Source of the DNA: Streptomyces marispadix
Lineage (GTDB): Bacteria; Actinomycetota; Actinomycetes; Streptomycetales; Streptomycetaceae
Assembly: GCF_022524345.1 (NCBI RefSeq)
Contig: NZ_JAKWJU010000002.1
Span: forward strand, 1,674,001 to 1,738,000
Length of the DNA: 64,000 nucleotides
Direction: 5' to 3'
Part shown: positions 58,655-63,362 of the stretch, piece after piece
Numbering within the stretch: position 1 is the stretch's first letter
How the letters are laid out: each line of letters opens with the position of its first letter
Program-made: the position numbers and the translations under genes
The notes under the pieces: model-generated
The model's input: the letters and a program-made list of their open reading frames with translations, nothing else
What the model was told of the DNA's origin: nothing
Databases searched by the model: none

Positions 58655-59563
58655 CTAGAGCAGCTCCCACTCGCGGGCGCGCTCGGTGAGATGGCGGTGG
58701 ACAACGGCTGCGGCGGGGTTGGCGGGGGCGCCGCCGCGGCTCGCCAGATAGAGGGTGTTGAGCGGGCGCACCCGGGGCTGGTGCAGCGCCTCCACCGAGC
58801 CTGTGGCGAGCGCCGGTTCGGCGAGATAGCGGGGCAGTACGGACACCCCGGCGCCCGCGACCACGGCGGCCAGTACGCCACGTAGATCGGGCATCGTCAC
58901 GGCCACGGGGTTCGGCGGGCGGCGGCCGAACTCGCTGCGCCAGTAACGGCGGACGATGGGCAGCTCCTCCCCGTAGGCCACGAGCGGCAGATGGGCCAGC
59001 GCGCGGACGGGTTCGGCGGCGAGACGGGCCTGGTCGACGGTACGGGCCAGGGAGGGCGGGCCCACCAGCACGAACTCCTCGTCGGCGAAAGGCGTCGCGG
59101 AGATGTTCTCCAGCCGGGGCCGCACGGAGGAGACCACCAGATCGACGCGGGCGGCGGCGAGCGCCGCCAGCAGTTCCTCCGCGAGGCCGAGCGTGATCCG
59201 CAGCCGTAGGCCACGGGCGGTGAGCGGGGCGAGAGCCGGGACCACACGGAGGGCCATCAGATCGGAGGGGCCCGCAAGATGGACCGTGCCGCGGTGGCCG
59301 AGCCCGTCGGCGTCGCCGGAGTCGAGGGCGCCGTTGAGTTCGTCGAGATGGGTGCCGATCCGCCTGGCCAGTTCGTAGGCGCGCTCGGTGGGGATGGCGC
59401 CACGGCGAGAGCGTACGAAGAGAGGCTCGCCGATCTGCTCCTCCAGGCGGGCCAGCCGTCCGCTGACGGCAGGCTGGCTCACCCCGCGCCGGGCCGCGGC
59501 GGCGGTGATCGAACCGCCCCTGTAGATCTCCAGGAAGGTGGAGAGCAGATCGAGGTCGGGCAC
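58655..59563 (-). CDS. LysR-family transcriptional regulator
   Basis: A 302-residue regulator. The winged HTH is LDLLSTFLEIYRGGSITAAAARRGVSQPAVSGRLARLEEQIGEPLFVRSRRG (residues 4-55); the effector domain runs from about 90 to 295 (TVHLAGPSDLMALRVVP, LVVSSVRPRLENISATPF, VVAGAGVSVLPRYL). LysR proteins usually control a divergent neighbour; here that is the DJ-1/PfpI gene, across the heptad-repeat region. GTG 59563 is the start. The effector is unknown. Confidence 0.9.
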   Translation of the reverse strand: MPDLDLLSTFLEIYRGGSITAAAARRGVSQPAVSGRLARLEEQIGEPLFVRSRRGAIPTERAYELARRIGTHLDELNGALDSGDADGLGHRGTVHLAGPSDLMALRVVPALAPLTARGLRLRITLGLAEELLAALAAARVDLVVSSVRPRLENISATPFADEEFVLVGPPSLARTVDQARLAAEPVRALAHLPLVAYGEELPIVRRYWRSEFGRRPPNPVAVTMPDLRGVLAAVVAGAGVSVLPRYLAEPALATGSVEALHQPRVRPLNTLYLASRGGAPANPAAAVVHRHLTERAREWELL

Positions 59564-59592
59564 GTGCGCTCCTCGGCGGGTCGGTCGTCAAC

Positions 59593-59819
59593 TGACGATC
59601 GGCGGCTGGCAGATGGTGACTGACGGGTGACGGGTGACCAATGACAGATGACGGGTGACCGATGACAGATCAGCGATGGCAGATGACAGATAGCGGCTGA
59701 CGACTGACAGGTGACGGATAACGGCGGACGACGACTGTCAGATGACAGATGGCAGACGTCGGATGACGGATGACAGATAACGGCTGACGGCTGTCAGATG
59801 ACGACTGACAGATGACAGA
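59593..59819. repeat. 32-unit heptanucleotide tandem repeat array
   Basis: The sequence falls into consecutive 7-bp units: 20 from 59593 to 59732, three extra bases, then 12 from 59736 to 59819. The consensus is TGACRGA/TGACGGC; 7 units are exactly TGACAGA, 19 begin TGAC and 30 carry C at position 4. Because 7 is not a multiple of 3, TGA stops occur in every plus-strand frame, so it is not coding. Short inverted copies flank both ends (TCGTCA at 59585-59590 and the arm at 59825-59836). It fills the divergent region between the LysR and DJ-1/PfpI genes. Confidence 0.85.
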
Positions 59820-59836
59820 TGCCCGCATCTGTCATC
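59811..59836. repeat. perfect inverted repeat at the end of the heptad array
   Basis: GATGACAGATGC (59811-59822) and GCATCTGTCATC (59825-59836) pair perfectly around CC. The left arm is the last part of the heptad array and the right arm is its only well-matched reverse copy. It could be an operator dyad for the LysR protein or a hairpin in the DJ-1 leader. Confidence 0.7.
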
Positions 59837-59960
59837 CATAAGAAAAGTGATGACAGCGCCGAGGTTAGCGGAGGAATTCCTAGGTCTGCGAGTGTTGAAG
59901 TGGAGGACGGACGGACACCGGCACAGCACCGGTGCCAAAGCGAGAGAAGGAAGATCCGCC

Positions 59961-60692
59961 ATGGCGAAGATCCTTATGGTCGTCTCTGCGGCCGACCGCC
60001 TCACACTGGCCGACGGCACGGCCCACCCCACCGGATTCTGGGCCGAGGAGGTCGCCGTCTCGCACCGTGTGCTGCGCGACGCGGGCCTCGATGTCGACAT
60101 CGCCTCCCCGGGCGGTGCACGGCCCACTGTCGACCCGATCAGCCTCGACGAACGCGGCGGCGTGGACGAGGGAGCAGCCGCCGAGTTCCGCTCGTATCTC
60201 GACTCCATCACCGATGAGTTGGCGAAGCCGCTGGCTCTCGCCGATGTGAAGGAGGCCGACTACGACGGCGTGTACATACCCGGTGGTCACGGGCCGATGG
60301 AGGATCTGGCCCACGACGCCGACCTCGGCCGTCTGCTGACCGCCTCCGACCGGAACGGCAAGATCGTCGCGGCGCTGTGCCACGGTCCCGCGGGTCTGCT
60401 CAGCGCGAGCGGTGCGAGCGGCGAGAGCCGCGACACCGGCGCCGGTTTCGCCTTCGCCGGGCGCAGGCTGACCGTCTTCTCCGACGAGGAGGAGCGGCAG
60501 GGCCTGGGGAACTCGGTGCCGTACTTCGTGGAGAGCAGGCTGCGCGATCTCGGCGCGATCGTCGAGACCGGCCCGGCGTGGGCGAGCAAGGTCGTGACCG
60601 ACGGCAATCTGATCACCGGCCAGAACCCGCAGTCCAGTGCCGAGACCGCCCGCCAGGTGATCACCGCGCTCAAGGAGCACGCCGTCGCCTGA
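59961..60692 (+). CDS. DJ-1/PfpI-family protein (Hsp31/glyoxalase III-like)
   Basis: A 243-residue class I glutamine amidotransferase-fold protein. The N-terminal strand is AKILMVVSAADRLTLADGTAHPTGFWAEEVAVSH; the acidic residue of the site is in the FWAEE turn, the nucleophile elbow is IVAALCHGPAGLL with the Cys, and the GVYIPGGHGPMEDLAHD loop precedes it. Relatives act on methylglyoxal or glycated proteins, or as holdase chaperones. ATG 59961 follows AAGGAAG. It is divergent from the LysR gene across the heptad array. Confidence 0.9.
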   Translation: MAKILMVVSAADRLTLADGTAHPTGFWAEEVAVSHRVLRDAGLDVDIASPGGARPTVDPISLDERGGVDEGAAAEFRSYLDSITDELAKPLALADVKEADYDGVYIPGGHGPMEDLAHDADLGRLLTASDRNGKIVAALCHGPAGLLSASGASGESRDTGAGFAFAGRRLTVFSDEEERQGLGNSVPYFVESRLRDLGAIVETGPAWASKVVTDGNLITGQNPQSSAETARQVITALKEHAVA

Positions 60693-63170: not shown

Positions 63171-63362
63171 GGTGCGCGAACGCGGCGGCGGGGAAGGTGA
63201 GTCGAGGTCCCTCGGGGTTCTTGGAGTCCCGTACGGCGACGGGGCCCCGCGAGGCGCGGTGAGTCGGGCGACCTCGACGCACTCGCCGCCGCTGTCTCCG
63301 CTGTCTCCGCTGTCTCCGCTGTCTCCGCTGTAACCGGACCTGATCCACCCCGTGTTGACCAG
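63127..63362 (-). pseudogene. DUF397-family gene, frameshifted and without a normal start codon
   Basis: Two adjoining frames together give a DUF397 protein. The N-terminal frame reads VNTGWIRSGYSGDSG..., then GGECVEVARLTAPRGAP; the other frame continues VAVRDSKNPEGPRLTFPAAAFAHLIRSV, the family's C-terminal half. The shift is at the GGGGCCCC run near 63240-63247 (one base missing). No ATG, GTG or TTG is found in the first frame between the preceding stop and the conserved start; CTG at 63362 is the nearest candidate. DUF397 genes are usually partnered by an XRE regulator; none is adjacent. Either a decaying gene or sequencing error. Confidence 0.7.
63291..63335. repeat. 9-bp tandem repeat inside the DUF397 gene
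   Basis: GCTGTCTCC is repeated four times (63291-63326) with a fifth, altered copy to 63335. On the minus strand each unit codes for Gly-Asp-Ser, so the array lengthens a Gly-Asp-Ser loop between the WIRSGYS strand and the GGECVEVA strand. In-frame units make it a candidate for length variation by slippage. Confidence 0.85.

Follow-up and report, generated by a model that had tools for sequence, protein, structure and literature searches.

A dispersed family of intergenic heptamer arrays in a Streptomyces clade, with the predicted operator of a TetR repressor at its core

What maintains an extended train of 7-bp units between a regulator gene and its neighbor in a streptomycete? The stretch of Streptomyces marispadix DNA that we analyzed (64,000 nucleotides; 'the window') carries such an array between a LysR-family regulator gene on its left (an ORF at positions 58655..59563, reverse strand, with domains PF00126 and PF03466) and a DJ-1/PfpI-family gene on its right (59961..60692, forward strand; PF01965). 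The original prediction for this locus offered two readings: a slippage-prone minisatellite that sets promoter spacing, or a cluster of weak binding sites that titrates a regulator such as the adjacent LysR protein.

Composition of the window array

Unit parsing resolved the period-7 array at 59593-59819 into 20 heptamers of the type TGACRGN (59593..59732, forward strand), a three-base interruption, GAC, at 59733..59735 and a further 12 heptamers (59736..59819, forward strand), giving the 32 units and the single break that had been predicted. A recount likewise gave C as the fourth base in 30 of the 32 units and a TGAC start in 19 of them. The Tandem Repeats Finder (TRF) reported a period of 7 (25.4 copies, score 100) and a period of 21 (9.4 copies, score 135). 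The region had been described as far from ordinary intergenic DNA and as AT-rich for its surroundings, and both statements stand: identity at lag 7 is 0.641, as compared to a mean of 0.274 (standard deviation 0.033, maximum 0.395) in 2000 dinucleotide-preserving shuffles, and the GC content is 57% versus 71% for the whole 64-kb window. When the window was scanned in 227-bp segments (step 10), the 15 segments with the highest lag-7 identity all overlapped the array.

A coding repeat is unlikely. TGA recurs every seven bases on the forward strand; the reverse strand is partly open, with a 52-residue ORF at 59670-59828 and the tail of another at 59738-60211. An assembly artefact is also an unlikely source of the array, since the genome is assembled in two contigs and arrays of the same kind are present in the assemblies of two other species.

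Inspection of the right-hand end of the array revealed a feature that the original prediction had not described. The array continues into one inverted unit, and its last heptamer thereby forms the left arm of a perfect 22-bp dyad, TGACAGA-TGCCCGCA-TCTGTCA (59813..59834), an operator-like core that closes the array. The end of this dyad lies 126 bases from the DJ-1 start codon. Beside it is a block, CCATAAGAAAAGTGATGACAG (59836..59856), that is largely kept in the corresponding array-free gaps of Streptomyces abyssalis and Streptomyces sp. HNM0575, and that is probably the promoter/regulator region of the LysR/DJ-1 pair.

A dispersed family of intergenic arrays

Membership in a dispersed family was the second point beyond the original prediction. 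A search of the S. marispadix genome (6.7 Mb, two contigs) with the window array gave 23 matches at E ≤0.001, the array itself among them, and a search for three consecutive TGACRGN units with up to two mismatches gave 184 hits, versus 5 for the reversed-pattern control. We took 19 further stretches from this genome, each with an array; together with the window array these 20 span 0.90 to 6.47 Mb. A short array of eight units with an exact dyad (L141) is extra to these 20.

Based on a home-made gene caller that uses codon usage, all 20 arrays are intergenic, with 11 between tandem, 6 between convergent and 3 between divergent gene pairs. With 6 of the 20 placed between convergent genes, the setting of promoter spacing cannot be what the arrays generally do. 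The starts of the flanking proteins display no common theme and, when read by eye, gave no hint of a recombinase or cargo next to the arrays. We also considered a common aldehyde-stress regulon, in which the DJ-1 protein (nearest to the HchA model) would join an aldo/keto reductase (AKR) described below (nearest to a methylglyoxal reductase model); both proteins fall far below the respective cut-offs, and the other array neighbors do not fit.

Within individual loci, adjacent units match each other exactly more often than they do after shuffling within the locus, a sign of local duplication. Copying of whole arrays between loci was rejected, since no string of four or more mixed units is common to different loci among the 18 that were compared (L013 and L019 were omitted as homogeneous). 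Strings of two units are common to different loci 82 times (51.6 in shuffles) and strings of three units 7 times (1.25 in shuffles), each value being reached by 1 of 300 shuffles, with all counts inflated by a parser that reads some stretches on both strands. Given this excess of short shared strings, some old copying between arrays may have taken place. For a transposable element or MITE, which would leave a target-site duplication around the copied sequence, the empty gaps align too poorly to display a junction.

The core has a fixed geometry

We examined the arrangement of units in 51 stretches (20 from S. marispadix, 20 from HNM0575 and 11 from S. abyssalis), which yielded 52 array regions; stretches L149 and L158 contributed two regions apiece, and L173 was too short for a 55-bp cut. 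Most arrays head toward a dyad, in the form (TGACRGN)n - TGACAGA-N8-TCTGTCA - (NCYGTCA)m. The gap between convergent TGACA and TGTCA is exactly 12 in 28 of the 52 regions, and no region has a gap of 10, 11, 13 or 14. Most of the larger convergent gaps equal 12+7k. The dyad is present with at most one mismatch in 39 regions, leaving 13 in which it is absent even at one mismatch. Its spacer varies from array to array, with a central YR dinucleotide in 24 of the 28 exact dyads.

Throughout the S. marispadix genome the exact pattern TGACAR-N10-YTGTCA occurs at 14 sites, 12 of them at arrays (one array being short), and with one mismatch at 21 sites, compared to 8 in a control. Two exact dyads, L140 (C2:840367) and L142 (C2:2924897), stand without arrays; these are possible further targets of the TetR protein discussed below.

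Gain, loss and constraint in relatives

The arrays are specific to one clade. With up to one mismatch, three consecutive TGACRGN units gave 0-23 hits in 60 relatives (control 0-8) versus 97 in S. marispadix (control 0). When two mismatches were allowed, S. abyssalis gave 70 hits (control 0) and HNM0575 gave 195 (control 6); three other genomes gave 4, 5 and 0 (controls 3, 3 and 1).

The original prediction had proposed a comparison of the same LysR/DJ-1 gap in related strains. In S. abyssalis (L028) and HNM0575 (L029) this gap retains the block CCATAAGAAA and is free of an array. Of the 80 DJ-1 loci that we retrieved (L028-L107), none displays two adjacent consensus units or the dyad. An operator array for LysR would be expected wherever the LysR/DJ-1 gap is kept. 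We therefore set LysR aside as the binder of the array, given that these orthologous gaps hold no array and that like arrays flank unrelated genes. At L017, the second of the two loci at which absence in relatives was examined, both relatives also appear by eye to be free of an array.

Occupied positions are partly shared. Eight of 22 S. marispadix loci compared match the position of a fetched HNM0575 array, none of the 22 matches any of the 11 fetched S. abyssalis stretches, and one orthologous pair was found between HNM0575 and S. abyssalis. Between orthologous arrays, both the length and the order of units differ.

These observations bear on a rival account of the family, in which neutral minisatellites grew by slippage from operator-like seeds, any binding by TetR is incidental and the arrays are functionless. 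The minisatellite part of the original prediction gains from the excess of identical neighboring units and from the differing unit numbers of orthologous arrays. The indifference of the arrays to gene orientation, their lineage-specific presence and the sparseness of the pattern in many relatives are also consistent with neutral growth. Drift would not be expected, however, to hold the gap at the change of polarity strictly to 12 in 28 of 52 regions while the spacer itself varies, nor to change the dyad arms less than the spacer. In eight orthologous pairs from S. marispadix and HNM0575, the arms differ at 6 of 80 bases and the N8 spacers at 16 of 64 (Fisher p 0.005), a comparison biased toward conserved arms, since the cores were picked by them. 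We regard purely neutral arrays as a serious contender, if a rather unlikely one.

The ninth pair, L159/L166 (HNM0575/S. abyssalis), was omitted from this count; its dyad gaps are 5 and 12, and so differ by one 7-base unit within the dyad.

The dyad precedes AKR-TetR gene pairs elsewhere in Streptomyces

The dyad is more widespread than the arrays. With no mismatches, TGACARA-N8-TYTGTCA is present in 230 of 392 Streptomyces genomes and absent from 162; among the positive genomes, 221 have one copy, 6 have two and 3 have more. Copy numbers are 7 in S. marispadix, 6 in G262 (presumably HNM0575) and 4 in S. abyssalis (G418), and the reversed-pattern control gives 0 in nearly every Streptomyces genome. 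Among the single copies listed, the majority have the sequence TGACAGATATTGAAATCTGTCA on one of the two strands. A site is also found in 39 of 60 genomes of the order, members of a second family included, with a partly different spacer there.

In the second-family genomes G038, G039, G042, G043, G046, G048 and G049, the single site is TGACAAAACTTGAAATCTGTCA, in which the left arm is changed and a -35-like TTGAAA is kept.

In 14 of 16 fetched sites, and in 13 of 14 outside the clade, the dyad precedes an AKR gene followed by a TetR gene. One exception (L191) has the dyad before another gene, which reads as aldo/keto reductase-like. The other (L187:3213) is a second exact S. abyssalis dyad, TGACAGATTCTGATATCTGTCA, that stands without an array near a gene read as beta-lactamase-like; farther from it are a MerR-like gene and another aldo/keto-type gene, as read from the starts of their sequences.

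Alignment of 16 AKR promoters (the 14 fetched sites plus L020 from S. marispadix and L149 from HNM0575) revealed in every case a TTGA(A/T/C)A hexamer inside the dyad and NANNNT 17 nucleotides downstream, the spacing of a -35 and a -10 box. The AKR site thus has the arrangement of TetR-family autoregulatory operators, in which an inverted repeat lies over the -35 box before the regulator's own operon. At these promoters the spacer, TATTGAAA, is nearly fixed, in contrast to the free spacer of the arrays, and the spacer of the window dyad contains no -35 box, unlike the AKR-promoter copy. A division of roles, with the arms of the dyad serving a protein and the spacer serving RNA polymerase, would fit this pattern. 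Traces of a next heptamer are visible outside the clade, with GTCA at +7 in 7 of 13 sites and TGAC at -7 in 5 of 13.

The position of the dyad at AKR genes also bears on an RNA element, in which the dyad would form a transcript hairpin (a terminator or small RNA); a small RNA with compensatory pairing had been named in the original prediction as part of a refuting outcome. The arms are complementary, and the dyad region alone folds better than shuffles at a z of about -4 (-4.3 and -3.8 on the two strands). However, the body of the array folds no better than shuffles (z -0.5 and 0.7), no Rfam match was found up to E 1 within 59300-60100, and at AKR genes the overlap of the dyad with the -35 box puts it upstream of the point where the transcript is predicted to begin. 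We consider an RNA element very improbable.

Another DNA-binding protein, such as a nucleoid protein, recombinase or integrase, might instead share or have taken over the dyad sequence. Tyrosine recombinases act at a crossover core accompanied by arm sites, and 7-bp arms around an 8-bp spacer resemble such a core; the variable spacer with its central YR step, and a spread that is independent of gene context, would suit such a protein. Against this, the dyad occurs outside the clade mostly as a single copy, within the promoter of a TetR gene pair, and the starts of the flanking proteins, as read by eye, suggest neither a recombinase nor cargo. Such a protein is an improbable binder, less so than an RNA element is an improbable product.

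In the literature searched, with most subscription journals outside its scope, neither the 22-mer dyad nor its 20-mer core had a match, and no prior description of the AKR-TetR operon or of the heptamer array family was found. For TGACAGAT together with Streptomyces, the titles among the matches listed were unrelated.

The candidate TetR repressor

The tetR gene of the S. marispadix AKR-TetR pair (G000:C2:1646034) lies approximately 88 kb from the window array (C2:1733593). Its product contains domains PF00440 and PF17935, and its nearest structurally solved relative by sequence is 4hku. The next-best matches to this protein in its own genome have only 25-40% identity. The recognition stretch, KATVVDVARALGVSHG, is invariant in 15 of 15 proteins. 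Against the NCBIfam SlmA model the protein scores 21.4 bits (cut-off 120), which places it outside the SlmA family.

Four of the 20 S. marispadix arrays are no more than 90 kb away from the tetR gene (G000:C2:1644821-1733593; binomial p 0.014, calculated post hoc), a proximity that could point to local spread.

A model for the arrays

The arrays form a dispersed family that is specific to one clade, and its operator-like core keeps a fixed geometry. They most likely carry the AKR-TetR operator, amplified in one clade, since elsewhere the dyad is found mostly as a single copy before the AKR-TetR genes with a -35 box inside it; the target site of one gene switch has apparently multiplied along the chromosome. 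We therefore favor, with modest confidence, a reading of the window array as a member of this intergenic family whose core is the predicted operator of one TetR repressor. The binding-site cluster of the original prediction would thus stand in altered form, with a core that matches the promoter dyad of the AKR-TetR pair and without the adjacent LysR protein as its binder. The 13 of 52 regions that lack a dyad and the lack of a shared theme among array-neighbor genes count against assigning the arrays to TetR.

We suggest that TetR would bind the dyad as a dimer, with the heptamers acting as half-sites; we know of no TetR protein with demonstrated binding to abutting 7-bp half-sites. With less certainty, the half-sites might multiply by local slippage beside a bound dyad, and the arrays might jointly keep TetR off its own promoter, acting as a repressor sponge, or alternatively might spread TetR along the chromosome. 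Local repression is possible in the window as well, given that the dyad lies a short distance before the DJ-1 start codon and beside the conserved block; TetR bound there could also repress the DJ-1 promoter. A more far-reaching and quite tentative proposal, which we think doubtful as it stands, is that a local and presumably ligand-sensing TetR has turned, within the S. abyssalis clade, into a chromosome-wide buffer or organizer, with its operator at no fewer than 20 intergenic places and flanking half-site tracks that load further dimers. If that were true, the operator of one repressor would have become a natural operator array on the scale of a genome.

Comparison with known systems

TetR-family operators normally comprise one or a few sites, whereas here there are about 20 places with trains of half-sites. 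SlmA, which acts in nucleoid occlusion, is a TetR-family protein with many chromosomal SBS sites that binds as a dimer of dimers and may spread, according to the parts of the source consulted (PMC4117426). The arrays described here resemble that system in occupying many chromosomal sites; they differ in that their candidate TetR scores below the SlmA cut-off, and heptamer arrays are unmentioned in the same parts of that account (PMC4117426). Natural decoy sites, or DNA sponges, are extra binding sites that lower the amount of free regulator and can tune it, as described in the sections consulted (PMC7686491). The arrays would likewise be extra sites for a regulator, and titration is a candidate role for them.

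A parallel in form is Chloroflexus aurantiacus, for which the portions consulted describe 22 heptamer-derived satellites, (GATAGRA)n, in which one short-period heptamer similarly recurs at many loci of one genome; the sequence is different, and those portions mention no operator dyad (PMC6749651).

It is usual to place regulators with a single target in one class and proteins that mark whole chromosomes in another. Related Streptomyces may display a step between them, with one site in many genomes and about 20 in one clade. Orthologous loci at which positions are shared or empty make the spread of an operator testable, as they do the driving of repeat growth by a bound repressor and the tuning of a repressor by natural sponges. 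The arrays and dyad together predict the operator of the conserved AKR-TetR operon.

The heptameric direct repeats of Streptomyces SARP proteins, and PHO boxes, are also bound by regulators and are spaced by about one helical turn; the units described here differ in that they follow one another directly at 7-bp steps and are oriented toward a dyad. The window contains one further short repeat at 63289-63331, a perfect 9-bp tandem repeat of CCGCTGTCT in 4.8 copies.
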